34,054 nucleotides of DNA. It comes from Candidatus Omnitrophota bacterium. Its GTDB lineage: Bacteria > Hinthialibacterota > Hinthialibacteria > Hinthialibacterales > JAKPRU01. A model generated the notes under the pieces. It did no database searches, had not been told where the DNA came from, and worked only from the letters and a program-made list of their open reading frames with translations. Both the position numbers and the translations under genes were made by a program. Positions within the stretch are counted from its first letter, which is position 1. Every line of letters starts with the position of its first letter. The stretch covers positions 1 to 34,054 of the forward strand of contig JAKPYU010000796.1 of assembly GCA_029568995.1 (NCBI GenBank), in the 5' to 3' direction. Of this stretch, positions 6,089 to 17,686 are shown in pieces.

Positions 6089-6199
6089 GCACTGTATTGG
6101 ACTGCTTCTTGAGGCCGCTATATCGGGGCGCGGCAATGGCCGGTGGGATGGATCCCGCCGCCCAGGGACGGGGTGAAATCCTGTGCAGGAGACATGCGC

Positions 6200-9100
6200 A
6201 TGTACGCCGCCGCCCACCCCCAATCTTATCCCCGTCCGTGGATGCACTCTATTCTCATCGTATTCCTGACGACCCTCTTCCTTCTCTGGGCGGCCCACGT
6301 TGCCTCCGGCCAGACACCGAATTCCTATTCCATATTGAATTTTGCCGGGGCGGGGATTGCGGGATTCGCCGGGGATGGTTCTCCGGCAGTCGAGGCCCGG
6401 TTCAATACCCCCTGGAACGCCGCCGTCGACCCCGACGGGAATGTCTTCATCGCAGATCGCGACAATAACCGCATCCGCCGGATCGACCGGCGAGGCATTG
6501 TGAGCACGTACGCGGGCAACGGATTCGCCTCCTTCTCCGGAGACGGCGGACCCGCCACCGATGCTTCACTCAACAAACCGAAAGGCGTCGCCGCACTGTC
6601 GGACGGCTCCATTCTCATTGCGGATACCGACAATCATTGCATCCGCAAGGTTGACCGCGGTGGGATCATTACCACCTTGGCCGGAATCGGACGGTTTGCG
6701 GGTGTCGGCGGTGAGGTCGTCCCCGCCACGGAAGCGCTGTTCAAAATGCCCTCCGACCTTGTGGTAGATGCTACCGGAAATGTGTATGTCGTGGACAGCT
6801 CCAATTTCCGAATCCGTGTAGTCGATCCATCCGGCGTGGTTCGAACTATCGCCGGTGTGGGGGGAACGGAGTTCGGCTATGCGGGGGACGGCGGACCCGC
6901 CACGGAAGCATTGCTGCTTTATCCATCCGGCATTGATCTCGACAGCCAGGGCAACATCTACATCGTGGACCAATTCAATAGTGTCGTCCGAAAAGTCGAC
7001 ACAAGCGGAATCATTACAACCATCGCCGGAATCGGCCAACAAAACGGATTCTCCGGAGACGGCGGACCGGCGACGCAAGCCAAGATGACCTATCCGCAGG
7101 ATGTGTTGATCGACGATCTCGGAAACATCCTGATCAGCGATTACAAAAATCACCGCATTCGTCGCGTAGACCCGAGCGGAACCATCGAAACCATCGCCGG
7201 GATCGGTAAGAACGGCTATTTCGGCGATGGCGGCCCTGCTCTCCTGGCGTGGCTCAATAATCCGGTTGGACTCGTACTGTACAGCCAGGACAGCTTTCTG
7301 GTTGTGGATTCTCTGAACCACCGGGTCCGGGAAGTCACGCTCCGCGATCTGTCCCAGACTCCGACACAGACTCCAACCTCCACACGAACACCCACCGCGA
7401 CAGCGACCAGTACGCCGACACCCCGACCATCGAATACACCCACGAATACACCCACCCCGCTGCCGGTTAACCAGCTGGCTCCCGGCATCAGCGCGGGCCG
7501 AACCGGGGTTTATTACACCAATACAAACCGTGTGTATATTCCGGTGGAACCGAAACAGGGAACGGTTCGCGTCGTTCTTTCCTCTACCGAGAACGGCAGC
7601 GGTCCCCTGTCGGTCAATGACACGCTGGCTCTGGACGTTACACGACCGGACGGAACCATCGCAAATGCAACCGTCACATTCAGCGCCGCTAATCCCATCC
7701 GACCCGCGGAAAATGTCACCAGCCTTTTCCAGAAAGGCGAACACCTAGTCACCATCCGCCTTTCCAACCTGACAACGGACACCGGAACCGAGCCGCAGAC
7801 GAATACGGCGGTCTGGGTGGCGTTGCTGCTGGCGCCGGAAATCCGCAATATTCCCGACTTGCGACTGACCGTCGGCGAAGACCTGACAGCCGCACTGGAT
7901 TTGGATGACTATGTTATCGATCGGGATTCCGGTCAGGCGGGACTGAAATGGACTTACGAAATAAAGGGAACGGTTCGTGACCTCACCATTAACGATCAGA
8001 ATGTGATCTCCGTCCGCGCTGCCGCAACTCCGACGGAAGGGTCCATTATTTTCAGAGCGACCGATGGCGTGTTCTCGGCGAGTGATGAAGTGGTTGTGAA
8101 AACATCTACTTTCCTGATCGACCCCTTCATGAAAGATCCCGCGCCCCTGTTGGAGGATTACTGTTTCATTACGCCGTATTCCATGTACAACCAGATGCTT
8201 CCGAACGGCGTGTACGCCGCGGATATTCCATTCTCCGCGACATTCACAGGCGGTCTGGGCCTGGAAGCCGCGAATATCGCGCGCGGTCAAGCTTACTTCT
8301 TCAGTACGTTCCCCGGCGGATTGGTCGAGAACCCGCTGCCTGTCAGTCTCCGCGCCTACCGGATGAACAATCGAAGAGACCGGGACGGGGCGCTGATTTA
8401 TGTATCCTCCTGCATTCCGCCGATTGACGGCGATGCGGAAGCCGATTACGATTTCTCCGCGCTCACACTCGGATCGACCTCCTGGATGGTGGGGCTGGGG
8501 GGCGGCGGAACAGCCCGTCTGGGCGATGTTCCTCTCTCTCTTGATCCGCTGGCTACAGACGGCCATGGGTTGCTGGTCACGGTCGCACCCGGAAAGAGCG
8601 TCCTCCTGATGACACCGTATATCGACACGGGAGAGGGCACAATTACCATCCAGGGATATTTCGCGGCAGAGAATCCCGCGGAACCCCGCGATCTGCCGGA
8701 TATTTCCATCGGATTGTTCGCCGACAGCTCCAATCTTTCCATCAATACGATTACTGCCGACGAGATCAAAGGCGGCGGGCAGTATCAGCTCGTTACCAGT
8801 ACCTACGACAGCCCCACGGATCTCCTTCAGGGAGTTATCCAGATTTCCGCCCGACCCTATGCTCGCTCAACCGCGTACGTCTATATCGACAACATCCGTG
8901 TCTACCGCAGCGCACGGAAAACGGACCGCGCCCTGGGAAAAACCGAGATCAAAACCGCGCCGTTCGATGGAACATTCGAGTCCGTTCTGCTGGGACTCGG
9001 AGACATGGTACAGATTGACCCGACGAATACGAGCGGAGGAGAGGCCTATCTTACTCTGCTGTACAACCATGATCTGTTTGCAGGTGGTCGGTCGCAATCG

Positions 9101-9517
9101 ATGATCCTGAACCTGACCGATCCTCTCGGATATGTGCGCCTCCTGGCCGGGCCGCTTCCGCTCCCCGGGATCACATTTCCACGCACCATTACCGCGCAAT
9201 GCCATGTCAAGGCGGTGAAGAACGGAGAAGGATACTTTGCCATTGCGATGACGAACGGCCTGCACACGGCGGTGACCTACATGAGCAACGATAACCTTCC
9301 CCGCAACGGCGACTGGGTAAAAGTCTCCGTGACCGGCGACTTCCGCGTTCAGGCTGGAATCAATCCGATCCTGCTCTTGCAGAATCGGTATCTCCCCGGC
9401 GCGGTTCCCGGCCTGGTGAAGGATGCGGCAACCCTGGCGGTCGACGATATCACCGTTCACGCCGTTCAGGACCCCTCCTGGTTCTGGGACAAGCAAAGCC
9501 TGCGGTACGAGAACTGA
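6200..9517 (+). CDS. Secreted NHL-repeat beta-propeller protein with Thr-Pro linker
   Basis: About 1105 residues. I chose the ATG at 6200 because AGGAG (6187-6191) lies 8 bases upstream; starts at 6143 and 6194 are in frame but less well placed. A signal peptide follows (hydrophobic ILIVFLTTLFLLWAA, cleavage near VASGQ). Residues of about 40-380 form six NHL repeats of the pattern GDGGPAT.A....P.G...D..GN..I.D..N..IR.VD, a complete six-bladed propeller. A low-complexity linker of TPT and TPTP steps (about 384-423) joins it to a 680-residue C-terminal part of beta-rich modules. Two stretches there, ending YVYIDNIRVYR and LAVDDITVHAV, resemble jelly-roll carbohydrate-binding domains. No catalytic motif is visible. 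A surface or extracellular binding role is likely; the ligand is unknown. Confidence 0.85.
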   Translation: MYAAAHPQSYPRPWMHSILIVFLTTLFLLWAAHVASGQTPNSYSILNFAGAGIAGFAGDGSPAVEARFNTPWNAAVDPDGNVFIADRDNNRIRRIDRRGIVSTYAGNGFASFSGDGGPATDASLNKPKGVAALSDGSILIADTDNHCIRKVDRGGIITTLAGIGRFAGVGGEVVPATEALFKMPSDLVVDATGNVYVVDSSNFRIRVVDPSGVVRTIAGVGGTEFGYAGDGGPATEALLLYPSGIDLDSQGNIYIVDQFNSVVRKVDTSGIITTIAGIGQQNGFSGDGGPATQAKMTYPQDVLIDDLGNILISDYKNHRIRRVDPSGTIETIAGIGKNGYFGDGGPALLAWLNNPVGLVLYSQDSFLVVDSLNHRVREVTLRDLSQTPTQTPTSTRTPTATATSTPTPRPSNTPTNTPTPLPVNQLAPGISAGRTGVYYTNTNRVYIPVEPKQGTVRVVLSSTENGSGPLSVNDTLALDVTRPDGTIANATVTFSAANPIRPAENVTSLFQKGEHLVTIRLSNLTTDTGTEPQTNTAVWVALLLAPEIRNIPDLRLTVGEDLTAALDLDDYVIDRDSGQAGLKWTYEIKGTVRDLTINDQNVISVRAAATPTEGSIIFRATDGVFSASDEVVVKTSTFLIDPFMKDPAPLLEDYCFITPYSMYNQMLPNGVYAADIPFSATFTGGLGLEAANIARGQAYFFSTFPGGLVENPLPVSLRAYRMNNRRDRDGALIYVSSCIPPIDGDAEADYDFSALTLGSTSWMVGLGGGGTARLGDVPLSLDPLATDGHGLLVTVAPGKSVLLMTPYIDTGEGTITIQGYFAAENPAEPRDLPDISIGLFADSSNLSINTITADEIKGGGQYQLVTSTYDSPTDLLQGVIQISARPYARSTAYVYIDNIRVYRSARKTDRALGKTEIKTAPFDGTFESVLLGLGDMVQIDPTNTSGGEAYLTLLYNHDLFAGGRSQSMILNLTDPLGYVRLLAGPLPLPGITFPRTITAQCHVKAVKNGEGYFAIAMTNGLHTAVTYMSNDNLPRNGDWVKVSVTGDFRVQAGINPILLLQNRYLPGAVPGLVKDAATLAVDDITVHAVQDPSWFWDKQSLRYEN

Positions 9518-9660: not shown

Positions 9661-10719
9661 ATGAATTCACGGGAACGGATCAGTCTGACTCTGCAACATC
9701 GCGAACCGGATCGTGTGGCCATACAGGATGCGCCCTGGGAGACCACCGTTGTTCGCTGGCGAAAGGAAGGATTTCCGGAAAATGTCGAGCCGGAAGAGTA
9801 TTTTCACTATGAGATGTCCGGTTTCGGTGCGGATACTTCGTTCCGGCTCCCAGAGGAAACTGTCGAGGAAACCGACGAATATGTTATCAAACGAAACAAC
9901 AACGGCACTCTCCTTCGAAACTGGAAACATACGGCCTCCACACCGGAAATGATCGAATTTACAATCAATTCGTGGGAAGCCTGGGAAGAACACCGGCCCC
10001 GTATGGCCATGGCCAGAGACCGGATCGAGTGGGAGAAGGACTTGGCTCGCAACCGCCGGGAGCGCGAGGCCGGACGCTGGTGCTGTTACAACGCGGCAAT
10101 CGGATACGACCGAACCCAGGGGATCGTCGGCTCCGAGAATCTGCTGATGGCCATGCTGGATGATCCCAAATGGGTTTTCGACATGTTTGAGGTCGCAATC
10201 GACCTCACGATCGCCTGCGCGGAGGAAATGCTGGCAGGCGGATTCGAGTTCGACGGTGCTTTCATGTATGACGACATGGGGTACCGTAACGCTTCCCTGT
10301 TTTCCCCTCATACCTATCGCAACCTTCTGTTTCCGCTGCATAAACGAATCTGCGATTTCTTCCATTCCAAGGGCCTGCCGGTTCTTCTGCACAGCTGCGG
10401 GCGCGTAAGCGAACTCGTCCCGCAACTGATCGAGGCCGGATTTGACTGCCTGCAGCCGCTGGAGTCAAAAGCAGGTATGGATCTGATTCAACTGAAAAAG
10501 GACTTTGGAGAGAGACTATGCTTCATGGGTGGAATCGATGCCCGCGCAATGTCCCATCCCGATCCATCCGTGATCGAGGAAGAAATCAGAACAAAGATTC
10601 CGTTCGCCATGAAAGGCGGGGGCTATATCTACCATTCGGACCACTCGGTCCCGGATGATGTGAGCTTCGAGCAATACAAACGTGTGATTGAGTTAGTCTT
10701 GAAATATGGGACATATTGA
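9661..10719 (+). CDS. URO-D superfamily protein, MtaA/CmuA-like
   Basis: A 352-residue member of the uroporphyrinogen decarboxylase fold family, opening with the family signature NSRERISLTLQHREPDRVA. It resembles the methyltransferase branch (MtaA, CmuA) rather than the haem enzyme. HSCG gives His244 and Cys246, the first two ligands of the H-x-C zinc site that activates thiols in MtaA. Cys263 lies nearby, but the C-terminal position where MtaA carries its last Cys instead reads HSDHSVPDD, with His. The start ATG follows AGGAG (9650-9654) by 6 bases. It is the first gene of a run with the mutarotase (32-base gap) and the rhamnosidase. URO-D proteins are frequent in sugar clusters of environmental bacteria and may handle methylated or other modified sugars. 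That role here is inferred, not shown. Confidence 0.8.
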   Translation: MNSRERISLTLQHREPDRVAIQDAPWETTVVRWRKEGFPENVEPEEYFHYEMSGFGADTSFRLPEETVEETDEYVIKRNNNGTLLRNWKHTASTPEMIEFTINSWEAWEEHRPRMAMARDRIEWEKDLARNRREREAGRWCCYNAAIGYDRTQGIVGSENLLMAMLDDPKWVFDMFEVAIDLTIACAEEMLAGGFEFDGAFMYDDMGYRNASLFSPHTYRNLLFPLHKRICDFFHSKGLPVLLHSCGRVSELVPQLIEAGFDCLQPLESKAGMDLIQLKKDFGERLCFMGGIDARAMSHPDPSVIEEEIRTKIPFAMKGGGYIYHSDHSVPDDVSFEQYKRVIELVLKYGTY

Positions 10720-10751
10720 TTATTGATCGGCTATCGAAAGGATAAGCAACA

Positions 10752-11177
10752 ATGAGTACTCGACCGATTTGTTTGTTGCCTGCCGCGCTTGTTCTCGCGC
10801 TGATCTTTGGCACAGGCTGCGCCCACCAGCCGAAACAGGTCCAGCGTTATGGCATGGTCATCGGAGTCAATCCTGAAAAGGTAGAGGAATACAAAGAGTT
10901 ACACCGGAACGTCTGGCCGGGCGTACTGAAGATGATCAAAGAATGCCATATCGAAAACTATTCGATCTATATGCACGAATTGGATGACGGGCGAATTTAT
11001 CTCTTCAGTTATTTCGAGTACACAGGCGATGATTTTGAGGCGGACATGGCAAAGATGGCCGCGGACAAGACGACCCAAGAGTGGTGGTCTCATTGCGAAC
11101 CCTGCCAGATTCCCATCAAAAACCGCAAAGAAGGCGATTGGTGGGCGAATATGGAAGAGGTATTTCACCTTGATTAA
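10752..11177 (+). CDS. L-rhamnose mutarotase family lipoprotein
   Basis: A 141-residue protein whose residues from about 32 on match the L-rhamnose mutarotase (RhaM/YiiL) family, which interconverts the alpha and beta forms of L-rhamnose. YGMVIGVNPEKVEEYKELH is followed by NVWPGV, including the active-site Tyr and His region, then YSIYMHE and YFEYTGDDFEADM, with TTQEWW near the end. Unlike the cytoplasmic E. coli enzyme it begins with a lipoprotein signal peptide: LLPAALVLALIFGTGC with a lipobox ending at Cys. It is therefore probably anchored in a membrane facing the periplasm. AAAGGA lies 9 bases before the ATG. It sits between a URO-D protein and a GH78 rhamnosidase, which supports rhamnose as substrate. 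Family confidence is high; true mutarotase activity of the exported form is inferred. Confidence 0.85.
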   Translation: MSTRPICLLPAALVLALIFGTGCAHQPKQVQRYGMVIGVNPEKVEEYKELHRNVWPGVLKMIKECHIENYSIYMHELDDGRIYLFSYFEYTGDDFEADMAKMAADKTTQEWWSHCEPCQIPIKNRKEGDWWANMEEVFHLD

Positions 11178-11185
11178 CCTTCCCT

Positions 11186-11214
11186 GTAGGGGCACGTTGC
11201 AACGTGCCCCCTAC
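11186..11214. repeat. Palindromic repeat between mutarotase and rhamnosidase genes (family H)
   Basis: GGGGCACGTTG (11189-11199) is followed at once by its exact complement to 11210, giving a 22-base perfect palindrome flanked by GTA/TAC with one extra C. It ends just before the rhamnosidase ribosome site. Repeats built on GTAGGGGCAC/GTGCCCCTAC arms are known as dispersed elements in other bacteria. Here it may also act as an RNA hairpin that tunes expression within the operon. Confidence 0.7.
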
Positions 11215-11229
11215 CCCATGGAGAATGAC

Positions 11230-13734
11230 ATGACATCAAAGACTCTCGATCTTTCCCCGGCGCGATGGATCTGGTATCCCTCCGGGCGCTGCCTGCAAAA
11301 CACATTTGTTCTGTTTCGTCGCGAATTGGACCTTTCTGGTGCTCCCAAAGCGGCAACCGGGTGGGTTGTTGCAGACAGCCGTTACCGCCTGTTTGTGAAC
11401 GGGCAACGGGTTCAGTGGGGACCCGCACCGGCGGACCCGCAACACCTGGAGGCCGATCCGCTGGATCTGACATCCCTTCTTCATCCGGGCAAGAATGTTA
11501 TTGGCTGCGAAGTACTCTTCTACGGGCGCGGGGAAGGTACCTGGCCGCTCGGCAAACCGGGATTCCTGTTTCAACTGGATATCGAAACAGCAGACGGGAA
11601 TACGAGATCTCTCGTCTCCGATTCATCCTGGCAAGCGCACATGGCGCGCTCCTGGCAGCCGGGACATTACACCCGCTGGTACCTGAGAGCCTTGCAGGAG
11701 GAATTTGACGCCCGCCTGTATCCGTATGGCTGGACCACCGCCGGATTTGTCCCCGATGCGGACTGGCTGCTTGCCATGGAACAGAACTGCCCCGCCGACA
11801 TGCCGGTTCTCTGTTCCACTTATGATGACTACATGATGGATATCATCGGGGACAAAGACCGTTGCGACCTCTCTCCGCGGAGTATTCCTCTACTGAACGA
11901 GGAATTGATTCCAGTCAAGAATCTATCTGAATCCCTATGGATTGCCTGGGATCGTCCTCCACGGGAGTATTTCGATTGCCGGACACCGAATGCATTCCGC
12001 GCGGTCGGCTCACCGTGCGCCGATGAGACGGGGCCGGGGAAATGGCGCGTTGTCCTCGACGGAACCCGTGGCGCAGCATTGACGTTTGAACTTGCCGAAC
12101 AGATTGTCGGTTGGCCCTATTTCACGATCCATGCACCCGCTGGAACCGTTGTGGAATTATTGGTACACGAGGCGCACGAAACTGGCGGCCCACCCCTTCT
12201 GAATACCCATTGGGAATCCTGGTCACGATTCGTTTGTAAAGAAGGCGAGAACACCTTCGAGCCGTTCGACTATGAATCGTTACGATGGCTGCAACTACAC
12301 ATTCACGGCATAGTTGGGGAAGTCCGAATTGAGCGAGTCGGTGTCCGACGTCGGATTTTTCCCTGGCCTCATATCCCGCAAGTATCCTGCTCCGATCCGG
12401 ATTTGCAGAGTCTTCTGGATGCCTCGATCAATACGCTGCACAACTCGGCGCAGGAGACTCTTGTGGACGGCATGGCGCGGGAACGCCAGCAATACAGCGG
12501 CGATTGCGGTCATCAGGCTCACGCGATCTACTTCGCGTTCGGTGAGACACGTCTTCCCGGACGATATATCCATACCTATAGTCAAGGGATAACTCATGAA
12601 GGGTATTTTCTGGATTGCTGGCCTGCGTATGATCGTCTCTGCCGCGTGATGCAGCGCCAACTCTTTCTGTCCAAGTGGGGACCCATTCTCGATCACGGAA
12701 TCGGATTTGTATTCGATTGCTTTCATCACTACATGTATTCGGGAGATCTGTCATCCCTGGAGAAACCGTTCGCGGCTCTGACACGGTTTGTAGAGTACTT
12801 GCGGAGGATTCGACGATCGGACGGCCTTCTGCCGGTAGAGGATATCGGGACGCCGTGTGTGTGGATGGATCACATCGCGTATCAACAGACACGGCATAAG
12901 AAATGCGCGTTCAATCTGTATGCCTCGGCCATGCTGGAGAATGCTTTCGCGCCTCTTTGCATGGCTTTCGGGGATACCGGTCTGGCTCGCGATTCGCAGT
13001 CGCTTGCCCGGGAGATCCTGGAATCTGCGGTGAAGCATTTCTGGCATCCTGAACGAGGCCTGTTTTGTGTGAATCTGCCGTGGCGATCCGAGGAACGAGA
13101 GGATCGTTTCTGTGACCGGTCTCTCGCAACCTCTATCCTTTTCAATCAATGTCCCGGTGATAGAACAGAGGCTGCATTGCGGATGCTGGTGGAATGCCCG
13201 CCGGAGATGGGATTCTCCTATCCGGCAAATGCCGGTTGGCGTCTCTGGGCGCTGGCGAAGGCGGGACGAATAGATGTCATTCTGAAAGATTTCCGCGAGC
13301 GGTGGGCCACCATGGATTCGGTTCGACTCAACAACACCTTGCAGGAAGACTGGGATGCCAGGCCGGATTCTACCGCCTCGGAATGGAGTCATTGCCCGGT
13401 CGCCCCGCTTTACCTGTTCTACATGGCAGTTGCAGGGATTCGACCGTTGGCGCCCGGATTCTCCCGTTGCGAAATCCGTCCGCAGTTGGGCGATCTGGAA
13501 CACGTGAGCCTTGTCGCGCACACCGCGTCGGGACCGATTCGGTTTGAGTCGGATGGAAAGCCAGGCAGTCGCTCTCTCCGCATTCAGCTGCCCGAGCGTT
13601 GCAGCGCCGAGTTGATCCTCCCTGCGGATGAGCACGTGGATCTGTCCTCACTGCCCTCCCCCGTTCCGCCGGGGCACAAGCGTTACGCCCTGCCTTCGGG
13701 AAAGGAGACGGCGTTGCAGTTGAGGACGGTTTAG
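11230..13734 (+). CDS. Alpha-L-rhamnosidase, glycoside hydrolase family 78
   Basis: 834 residues. I chose the ATG at 11230 because GGAG (11220-11223) lies 6 bases upstream and the sequence becomes protein-like there; the frame stays open upstream but runs through the mutarotase gene and the palindrome. N-terminal beta-sandwich modules (WIWYPSG, FRRELDL, VVADSRYRLFVNGQ) precede an (alpha/alpha)6 barrel. The GH78 catalytic motif reads DGMARERQQYSGD, keeping Asp413, Glu418 (general acid) and Asp425, and the general-base Glu sits at about 706 in LQEDWD. C-terminal beta domain IRPLAPGFSRCEIRPQLG is typical. The enzyme inverts and releases terminal L-rhamnose from glycosides. There is no signal peptide, so it is probably cytoplasmic, in contrast to its lipoprotein neighbour. 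Confidence 0.92.
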   Translation: MTSKTLDLSPARWIWYPSGRCLQNTFVLFRRELDLSGAPKAATGWVVADSRYRLFVNGQRVQWGPAPADPQHLEADPLDLTSLLHPGKNVIGCEVLFYGRGEGTWPLGKPGFLFQLDIETADGNTRSLVSDSSWQAHMARSWQPGHYTRWYLRALQEEFDARLYPYGWTTAGFVPDADWLLAMEQNCPADMPVLCSTYDDYMMDIIGDKDRCDLSPRSIPLLNEELIPVKNLSESLWIAWDRPPREYFDCRTPNAFRAVGSPCADETGPGKWRVVLDGTRGAALTFELAEQIVGWPYFTIHAPAGTVVELLVHEAHETGGPPLLNTHWESWSRFVCKEGENTFEPFDYESLRWLQLHIHGIVGEVRIERVGVRRRIFPWPHIPQVSCSDPDLQSLLDASINTLHNSAQETLVDGMARERQQYSGDCGHQAHAIYFAFGETRLPGRYIHTYSQGITHEGYFLDCWPAYDRLCRVMQRQLFLSKWGPILDHGIGFVFDCFHHYMYSGDLSSLEKPFAALTRFVEYLRRIRRSDGLLPVEDIGTPCVWMDHIAYQQTRHKKCAFNLYASAMLENAFAPLCMAFGDTGLARDSQSLAREILESAVKHFWHPERGLFCVNLPWRSEEREDRFCDRSLATSILFNQCPGDRTEAALRMLVECPPEMGFSYPANAGWRLWALAKAGRIDVILKDFRERWATMDSVRLNNTLQEDWDARPDSTASEWSHCPVAPLYLFYMAVAGIRPLAPGFSRCEIRPQLGDLEHVSLVAHTASGPIRFESDGKPGSRSLRIQLPERCSAELILPADEHVDLSSLPSPVPPGHKRYALPSGKETALQLRTV

Positions 13735-15721: not shown

Positions 15722-16735
15722 ATGCGCTTTCTGATCATCGGTTGTGGCTCAATGGGCAAACGTCGAGCGAGGGTCCTCAAGAAACTGGGATATGAGGATG
15801 TTCTTGCGCTGGACACCCGGACAGATCGCCTGGAGGAGATGCACTCCCAATCGCCTCATGTTCGGGGATTCGGAAATTTCGACCGTGCGGTTGAGGCTGG
15901 CGCAGACATGGCGCTGATCTGTGTCCCACCGCACTTGCACATTGATTTCCTGTTGAAATGTATCGACTTACGTCTTCCCACATTCTGCGAAGGTCCTCTC
16001 GTGATGACCCTGGATGACATGGATCGGGTGATTGAGGGGGCGAACAAGAGGCAGGTGTTCGTCGCACCCAGCTGCACCTACCTCCACGCCGAGGTCCATC
16101 ACAAGGTCAAAGAGATCATCGACAGCGACAGAATCGGCAAACCGCTCGCCATGATCTCCCATGTCGGGCATCACGTCGCCAACTGGCATCCCTACGAGGA
16201 CTATCGCCGCTTTTACGCGTCGAAACGCTCCGAAGGCGGGATGTGTTTCGATATGCTTCCGCACGACTTCCACACGGTGGAGTACCTGCTCGGCGATGTC
16301 TGCGGACTTTCCTGCATGGCACGAATGCGGTCCGAGAACATCGAAACCGATGAGGGAGCGTGCGATGTCTACGATGTGATTCTGGACATGAAATCCGGCG
16401 CTTCAGTGGTGGTTCACCAGGACATGTTTCAGCGTCCTTTCGGACATTACCGCAAAATCATGGGCGAAAGCGGGGCGGTGGAATGGAACTGGAAAACTGT
16501 CCGGCTCTGCGAGTACAAGGGATCTCAATTCCACGATGAACCCGAATGGGAAACCGTTCCGCTGAGTGAGAATTACCACCTGGAAAACGCCTACGATGGC
16601 GAGATTCTTCACGTCATCCGGGCCTGTGAAGGAAAAGAAAAATACCTCATGCCGCTGGAGAAAGAGAGACGGATTCTCGAATGGATGCTCGCATGTGAGG
16701 AGAGTTCCAGAAAAGGAATCCACATTACCTGGTAG
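15722..16735 (+). CDS. Gfo/Idh/MocA family NAD(P)-dependent oxidoreductase
   Basis: 337 residues with an N-terminal Rossmann fold (FLIIGCGSMGKRRARVLKKLG, a GxGxxG-type nucleotide site) and the C-terminal alpha/beta domain of the family (GGMCFDMLPHDFHTVEYLLGD, where the catalytic Asp-x-x-x-His region sits). These enzymes usually oxidise or reduce sugars or sugar acids. The usual Glu-Lys-Pro motif reads Glu90-Gly91-Pro92 here (FCEGPLVMT), so the conserved Lys is missing; substrate or chemistry may differ. A GGAG-type site lies upstream of the ATG. The aldolase gene follows 33 bases later on the same strand, so the two probably share a transcript and a pathway. Confidence 0.88.
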   Translation: MRFLIIGCGSMGKRRARVLKKLGYEDVLALDTRTDRLEEMHSQSPHVRGFGNFDRAVEAGADMALICVPPHLHIDFLLKCIDLRLPTFCEGPLVMTLDDMDRVIEGANKRQVFVAPSCTYLHAEVHHKVKEIIDSDRIGKPLAMISHVGHHVANWHPYEDYRRFYASKRSEGGMCFDMLPHDFHTVEYLLGDVCGLSCMARMRSENIETDEGACDVYDVILDMKSGASVVVHQDMFQRPFGHYRKIMGESGAVEWNWKTVRLCEYKGSQFHDEPEWETVPLSENYHLENAYDGEILHVIRACEGKEKYLMPLEKERRILEWMLACEESSRKGIHITW

Positions 16736-16768: not shown

Positions 16769-17686
16769 TTGACACAAACCACATTTGCACTCAAAGGGAT
16801 CTTACCCGCCCTCAGTACACCGTTCGCGCCGGATGGAACCGTCAACATATCGGTATTGCGCCGCATGGTCCGGTACCACCTGTCCGTCGGCTGCCATGGA
16901 TTTTTTGTCTGCGGAACCGCCGGAGAGGGTTTGCTGCTCTCCCGTGACGAGCGACGGCTTGTTGTCGAAACGGTCATGGATGAAATTGCGGGGCAGGTTC
17001 CCATTATTGTCCACGTCGGCACAGTTTCCACCCGCGAATCGGCGGCGCTTGCCAAAGATGCCGCCGAGCTGGGCGCGTCCGCAGTCTCCAGCATTCCGCC
17101 CGTGTATTATCCCGTCGGCCTGGAGGGAATCATCGAGCATCTGAAAGCCATCTCCGGTGCATCGGGTCTCCCCACATACTATTACCATATCCCCATCATC
17201 TCCCATGTTCCCCTTGTCCTGAACGATTTCATGGAAATCATCGACCAGGTACCCGGCCTGGTGGGATTCAAGTTCACCTTCCCGGACTTGCACCTCCTGT
17301 GGTGTATCCTGGATGCCGCCGGGCCGGATTCGATTTCAATCCTCTACGGAATGGACGAGCAGCTGCTTCAGGGATTGATCAGTGGGGCTGTGGGCGGCAT
17401 CGGTTCGACCTATAATTATCAGTCGAAGACGGTTGTCCAACTCTACGAGGCGTTCTGCCGGGGGGATCTCGACACCGCTATGCAGATGCAGCGGAAAGTC
17501 AACGCCGTGGTGAGGATTCTCCGGAAGTACGGCGGGAACCTGGCAACGGAAAAAGAAATCATGAAAATGCTGGGGTATGAAGTCGGGCAGCCGCGCGGCC
17601 CCATACGCCCGTTCCCGCAGGACCGCACCGCGCTCATCCGAAAAGAGCTGGAGGATATCGGTTTCTTCAACGGACGCATGATATAA
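16769..17686 (+). CDS. Dihydrodipicolinate synthase / N-acetylneuraminate lyase family aldolase
   Basis: 305 residues of the DapA/NanA (beta/alpha)8 aldolase family, which split or join pyruvate and an aldehyde through a Schiff base. Visible residues: the GTAGEG loop (49-54) that binds the keto-acid carboxylate, Tyr139 in YYYHIP, and the Schiff-base Lys168 in VGFKFT. The FKFT form and YYYHIP resemble neuraminate or sugar-acid lyases more than true DapA. The start codon is TTG at 16769, supported by AAGGAG (16756-16761) 7 bases upstream; no ATG fits. Next to the oxidoreductase it most likely belongs to a catabolic route for sialic acid or a 2-keto-3-deoxy sugar acid. Exact substrate unknown. 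Confidence 0.88.
   Translation: MTQTTFALKGILPALSTPFAPDGTVNISVLRRMVRYHLSVGCHGFFVCGTAGEGLLLSRDERRLVVETVMDEIAGQVPIIVHVGTVSTRESAALAKDAAELGASAVSSIPPVYYPVGLEGIIEHLKAISGASGLPTYYYHIPIISHVPLVLNDFMEIIDQVPGLVGFKFTFPDLHLLWCILDAAGPDSISILYGMDEQLLQGLISGAVGGIGSTYNYQSKTVVQLYEAFCRGDLDTAMQMQRKVNAVVRILRKYGGNLATEKEIMKMLGYEVGQPRGPIRPFPQDRTALIRKELEDIGFFNGRMI

Follow-up and report, generated by a model that had tools for sequence, protein, structure and literature searches.

A URO-D superfamily gene kept beside a GH78 gene in Candidatus Omnitrophota and its possible part in demethylating 6-deoxyhexosides

Why should a protein of the URO-D superfamily be encoded among genes for the breakdown of a deoxy sugar? The question is raised by contig JAKPYU010000796.1 of a Candidatus Omnitrophota bacterium (assembly GCA_029568995.1), whose positions 1 to 34,054 were analysed and are called the window here. 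Three open reading frames on the same strand lie tightly spaced in it and encode a URO-D protein, a mutarotase and a GH78 family enzyme. In the reading preferred here, to which a probability of about 0.4 is given, the URO-D protein is a methyltransferase that depends on a metal and takes the methyl group of an O-methylated 6-deoxyhexoside, from the sugar or the aglycone, into a shared corrinoid hub, and the genes form a small utilisation unit. The observations behind this reading are the gene content, its conservation, the co-occurrence of URO-D genes with the corrinoid activator RACo, and the corrinoid gene groups of related URO-D proteins.

The URO-D and GH78 pair and its recurrence

The URO-D and GH78 genes occur together, with their order kept, in all three genomes of the genus. 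In the congeners JAKQSI010000088.1 (L098) and JAKPRU010000184.1 (L100), genes for an NHL-repeat protein, the URO-D protein (87% identical) and the GH78 enzyme (88-89%) follow one another in order. The mutarotase gene is absent from both, yet its 3' end remains, with 20 codons in L100 (NRKEVHCRCADMEEVFHLD and a stop, versus NRKEGDWWANMEEVFHLD and a stop in the window) and seven codons in L098 (EVFHLD and a stop). These remnants indicate an ancestral trio from which two of the three genomes have lost the mutarotase by deletion; the mutarotase is dispensable. The first-pass annotation had treated the three genes as a trio and proposed conservation of the neighbourhood as a check, which the pair passes in the genus and the trio, as a fixed unit, does not. 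The unit is a URO-D gene with a GH78 gene more than a trio.

The loss of the mutarotase would also fit neighbours without a joint role, the URO-D/GH78 pairing then reflecting shared ancestry inside one genus. The same can be said of more distant relatives (L099 and L101, with URO-D proteins 57-58% identical, and L102), in which the URO-D orthologue has other neighbours than in the window; genes in these and other fetched stretches were called by a simple codon score instead of a gene finder. Nevertheless, order and spacing are kept across three genomes, a URO-D/GH78 pairing is also seen in another phylum, and the adjacency to one type of mutarotase was gained by URO-D genes of distinct branches (five changes on the tree). 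This account is the least probable of those weighed here. Separately, in G009 the genes that come after the URO-D orthologue encode a protein of the iron-sulfur type and an aldehyde ferredoxin oxidoreductase (L213:3376-6848, minus strand).

The recurrence in another phylum was found in Subdoligranulum variabile, whose record OY725838.1 carries, in a row, genes for GH2, URO-D, URO-D, a ROK kinase, URO-D and GH78. Elsewhere in this record, URO-D genes stand beside GH38 and solute-binding-protein-type ABC transporter genes, and RACo adjoins DUF2284 and a URO-D gene with HNCG...GCD. The record is labelled as a plasmid, is possibly chromosomal, and comes from one tblastn search of plasmids (3 records), which makes it an example and not a survey. 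Pairings of this kind hint at a so far undescribed way of using methylated sugars or plant glycosides. In line with the earlier remark that no described pathway with this trio was known, the literature searched gave no account of URO-D with a rhamnose mutarotase or with a rhamnosidase, and nothing on corrinoid demethylation of sugars.

The GH78 enzyme matches the N, 6-hairpin and C domains of its family with 44.8, 48.8 and 30.8 bits, all above the Pfam cut-offs. Its catalytic acid region matches that of RhaB (VDGMARERQQYSGD aligned with VDCPSYEQVFWVGD), the aligned residues presumably having the same catalytic roles, and Glu706 lies near the second catalytic Glu of RhaB but out of register. 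No export signal was seen at its N-terminus. In the window, its frame stays open further upstream, mostly across the mutarotase gene; in L100, the frame closes 66 bases before the start with no start codon between, which excludes there an export signal missed through a wrong start. The cytoplasmic appearance described earlier was thereby confirmed. Rhamnose is not established as the sugar of the unit.

The metal site and the link to corrinoid proteins

The URO-D protein matches PF01208 with 69.6 bits, above the cut-off, and its AlphaFold model (pLDDT 88.7) matches UROD with Z 26 and MtaA with Z 23, so that the modelled protein has the UroD fold. The haem enzyme HemE was rejected as its identity, since the window copy reaches 69 bits and another copy of the genome (C366), with neighbours that by eye resemble HemN and protoporphyrinogen oxidase, reaches 406 bits. 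In an alignment with MtaA (4ay7), the H-x-C motif falls on His244 and Cys246, Asp205 is conserved, and the last Cys of MtaA, which together with H-x-C we take to be its zinc ligands, corresponds to His328. This assignment agrees with a preprint (PMC10418091) that gives His-Cys-Cys for the superfamily's S-methyltransferases, and carboxylates or non-ligands at the place of Cys for its O-methyltransferases. A thiol methyltransferase of the MtaA/CmuA type was rejected as well (TIGR01463: 54.5 bits, cut-off 235.4; third ligand His328). Of the earlier description as MtaA-like with H-x-C ligands, the motif is confirmed and the third ligand differs. The residues His244, Cys246 and His328 probably form a metal site that is not of the thiol type. 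A His as the third ligand follows neither the S- nor the O-methyltransferase rule, and points to oxygen only mildly; CdmB is active without zinc, according to the available part of PMC13222342.

Relatives in the class place such proteins beside corrinoid genes. One strand of G012 encodes RACo, DUF1638, a URO-D protein with HSCG...THDI, another with VDCG...DHRV, MtaB and a corrinoid protein, and G010 has a similar group, one of its URO-D genes being split into two pieces. A URO-D gene with HSCG...HNI adjoins the gene of a corrinoid protein in both G003 and G004, and the run in G003 further includes a homocysteine methyltransferase, DUF1638, a URO-D protein with HICG...GCE, and RACo. The groups were identified by custom-built profiles, with Pfam run on one member each of MtaB, DUF1638, S-methyl_trans and RACo. 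They show that, in this class, corrinoid genes have URO-D genes without a thiol-type site as neighbours. The window protein itself falls into an 18-row clade (support 100/99) that contains two URO-D members of corrinoid clusters. As a side observation, large proteins of about 1000 amino acids that resemble one another at the N-terminus and match no Pfam family (L074:3217-6288, minus strand; L109:3446-6373, plus strand) are encoded next to the corrinoid protein in the genus and next to the URO-D/mutarotase pair in G007.

Co-occurrence points in the same direction. RACo was found in 25 of the 26 genomes with at least five URO-D matches and in 26 of the 119 others (145 genomes), and outside the class in 13/13 versus 26/118, where the threshold of five was picked after inspection of the table, at most 13 candidates were scored per genome, and the counts are uncorrected for genome size and anaerobic life. 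The sole URO-D-rich genome without RACo, G002, is an assembly in 1270 contigs, and the only class member without a URO-D match, G013, is also one in which RACo was not found. The co-occurrence does not prove a partnership of URO-D and corrinoid proteins. This co-occurrence, the gene groups of relatives and the non-thiol-type metal site speak for a link between the URO-D protein and corrinoid methyl transfer, and the earlier suggestion of an O-methylated substrate gains indirect support.

The bacterium's own genome contains 36 URO-D matches (two being pieces in one C296 region), one RACo, two homocysteine methyltransferase domains, and a pterin-binding methyltransferase in addition to a dihydropteroate-synthase-like pterin-binding protein. 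Its one B12-binding_2 match is a free-standing corrinoid protein of 217 amino acids; its interpretation as a piece of MetH was rejected. The corrinoid protein, RACo and the pterin-binding methyltransferase are all encoded away from the window unit. By analogy, these three and the homocysteine methyltransferases could form a split methionine synthase of the kind reported for Phaeobacter inhibens (PMC5764234, available part). In Ruegeria pomeroyi, according to the available part of PMC12478193, glycine betaine is demethylated through such a hub as well.

Several points weigh against a methyl-transferring role. In the neighbourhoods examined, neither the window unit nor most URO-D genes of its genome had a corrinoid gene close by, and the search of the S. 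variabile record gave no corrinoid protein either. In the bacterium itself, the corrinoid protein, RACo and the pterin-binding protein may serve a split methionine synthase only, and the uncorrected RACo counts belong here as well. The third position carries His, not the carboxylate named for O-methyltransferases, and the fold alone does not separate a methyltransferase from a decarboxylase. Alternatively, URO-D proteins could act without corrinoid on free sugars or sugar acids, for example as metal-dependent lyases, isomerases or decarboxylases, with the RACo link explained by anaerobic life and a split methionine synthase. This would suit most of the own-genome URO-D genes, which are solitary or beside unrelated genes, the several copies without H-x-C, the His that UROD also has at the position of His328, and a unit on contig C614 in which a URO-D gene and a mutarotase gene stand with Gfo/Idh/MocA, 3-keto-disaccharide hydrolase and symporter genes. 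It is at odds with the H-x-C-type and D-x-C-type URO-D genes within corrinoid gene groups and with the presence of RACo in every URO-D-rich genome outside the class, and is considered unlikely.

For the metal, the methyl transfer, the substrate, its import and the direction of the preferred methyltransferase reading, we infer the following course. GH78 would cleave an imported glycoside in the cytoplasm, and the URO-D protein would bind the O-methylated substrate, sugar or glycoside, at its His-Cys-His site. The methyl group would be accepted by the Co(I) corrinoid on the genome's one free-standing corrinoid protein, with RACo maintaining this corrinoid in its reduced state, and the pterin-binding and homocysteine methyltransferases would carry the methyl group onward. 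The exported mutarotase would interconvert the anomers of the free 6-deoxyhexose outside the inner membrane, as a dispensable aid to uptake.

In a variant of this course, the URO-D protein demethylates the aglycone and not the sugar: GH78 would remove rhamnose from methoxylated plant phenolic rhamnosides, and the URO-D protein would act like the aromatic O-demethylases of acetogens, via the corrinoid hub. The GH78 gene in the unit is in keeping with this, as are OdmB, VdmB and MtvB of the same superfamily, which demethylate methoxyaromatics (available part of PMC13222342), and the listing of both rhamnosidases and corrinoid O-demethylases among flavonoid-modifying enzymes (available part of PMC8398226). 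Since related URO-D genes adjoin a mannosidase family, GH2, ABC sugar-type transporters and L-fucose-type mutarotases, which point to sugar, the variant is thought distinctly unlikely. Aglycone demethylation and corrinoid-free sugar activity are both live rivals.

More doubtful than the reading of the window protein as a methyltransferase is a wider proposal. Among the 36 URO-D matches there might be a large group of substrate-specific sugar O-demethylases that depend on corrinoid. Some would be encoded together with a glycosidase or mutarotase, all would feed one corrinoid/methionine-synthase hub, and gut Bacillota such as S. variabile would follow the same plan. If true, this would be an anaerobic counterpart of the oxygen-dependent demethylation of methylated sugars. 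For many proteins labelled as uroporphyrinogen decarboxylase, no role is known to have been assigned; if many of them were glycosidase-tied corrinoid demethylases, a frequent misannotation would turn into a readable marker for anaerobes that use methylated glycans or methoxylated glycosides, and the degradation of carbohydrates would be connected with one-carbon and methionine metabolism. With the S. variabile cluster, the idea could be tested in a gut species.

The mutarotase branch, export and neighbours

The mutarotase matches the rhaM family (PF05336) with 106 bits, above the cut-off. The L-rhamnose mutarotase model TIGR02625 was not reached (52.2 bits, cut-off 99.6), and the protein scores 130 bits against the L-fucose mutarotase PDB 7byw versus 36 bits against the E. 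coli rhamnose mutarotase 1x8d. An orthologue of the C614-type mutarotase in G001 behaves alike (114 versus 35 bits), and a control rhaM protein from G003 is reversed (34 versus 168 bits). By these scores, the protein belongs to the L-fucose-mutarotase (FucM) branch and not to the rhamnose branch, and its earlier rhamnose label is not supported.

Its N-terminus, with a hydrophobic stretch and a lipobox-like FGTGC ending at residue 23, has the lipobox described earlier and is consistent with a lipoprotein by the lipobox rule. Judged from hydrophobicity and motif without a dedicated predictor, export signals among 25 rhaM loci are clear in the window, L107, L116, L118 and L123 and possible in L121. 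In G013 (L107), an exported L-fucose-type mutarotase is kept, though neither URO-D matches nor RACo were found. L123:7666-8403 (minus strand), from another phylum, encodes an exported protein of 245 amino acids with two rhaM matches and adjoins a URO-D gene.

The 25 loci were split into 14 of the L-fucose type (at least 127 bits to the window protein, with a contig-end fragment on C614 counted with its full-length orthologues) and 11 others. URO-D is the adjacent gene at 6/14 of the former (window, C614, G001, G002, G007, G058) and at 0/11 of the latter; as three of these six loci are orthologues within the genus, four are independent. The URO-D partners come from separate branches of a tree that omits URO-D pieces below 300 amino acids and whose group of six 'rhaM adjacent' members includes L121 (near only) and omits L113. 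In G005, G008 and G011, the L-fucose-type mutarotase adjoins a sodium:solute symporter (SSF)-type gene, two of the three symporters being confirmed by Pfam. Such neighbours fit a role in uptake rather than a step shared with GH78. The earlier argument, that an exported mutarotase and a cytoplasmic glycosidase place the sugar on opposite sides of a membrane, is weak, as exported forms recur and three of these mutarotases adjoin symporter-type genes.

Gene surroundings and comparison with known systems

The features are listed in Table 1. Downstream of GH78, Pfam also identifies a WD40 protein and a DUF1844 protein in the window, and a link of the Gfo/Idh/MocA oxidoreductase and the DHDPS-family aldolase to the URO-D/GH78 unit is only suggested. 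The core of the palindrome has one copy in the window and none in the 37 own-genome stretches examined (L038-L074).

Table 1. Positions of features in the window and of related gene groups at other loci
Feature	Position	Strand	Basis
NHL-repeat protein, exported-looking, upstream	6194..9517	+	kept with URO-D and GH78 in both congeners
URO-D superfamily protein, 352 amino acids	9661..10719	+	PF01208, MtaA alignment, model pLDDT 88.7
Predicted exported-type mutarotase, 141 amino acids, lipobox-like FGTGC, L-fucose-mutarotase branch	10752..11177	+	PF05336, 7byw versus 1x8d scores, N-terminus
Perfect 22-base palindrome 5' of the GH78 gene	11189..11210	not assigned	
GH78 family enzyme, 838 amino acids, start 11218 (ATG) or 11230, without export signal	11218..13734	+	Pfam domains, RhaB 2okx alignment, conserved start
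Gfo/Idh/MocA oxidoreductase, downstream	15722..16735	+	Pfam
DHDPS-family aldolase, downstream	16769..17686	+	Pfam
Corrinoid gene groups with MtaB, several URO-D, DUF1638, RACo in class relatives	L205:4432-11039; L204:4935-13591		
S. variabile URO-D region with GH2, GH38, GH78, ROK kinase, ABC transporter, PocR-type regulator, RACo	L227:40690-49999; L228:1-15844 (OY725838.1)		

Each part of the unit has a known counterpart from which it departs. The window mutarotase resembles FucM (PDB 7byu, 7byw) across its whole domain, and differs in its exported, lipobox-like N-terminus and its place beside URO-D and GH78. The GH78 enzyme shares its domains and a VD-x4-E-x6-GD stretch with the alpha-L-rhamnosidase RhaB (2okx), is distant from it (98 bits) and has no export signal. 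The UroD-superfamily corrinoid methyltransferases (MtaA, Mlp proteins, OdmB, VdmB, MtvB, CdmB) have the same fold and superfamily as the window URO-D protein, and its relatives are, like them, grouped with corrinoid protein and RACo genes. The window protein is only weakly similar to MtaA/CmuA, with His-Cys-His instead of His-Cys-Cys, and its gene has no adjacent corrinoid genes but is linked to GH78 and a mutarotase. Finally, the MtgBCDE hub with RamA and DUF1638 has its likeness in the corrinoid protein, pterin-binding and homocysteine methyltransferases and RACo of this genome, by which several donors could be served; the donor methyltransferases proposed here are URO-D proteins, and not of the MttB type.

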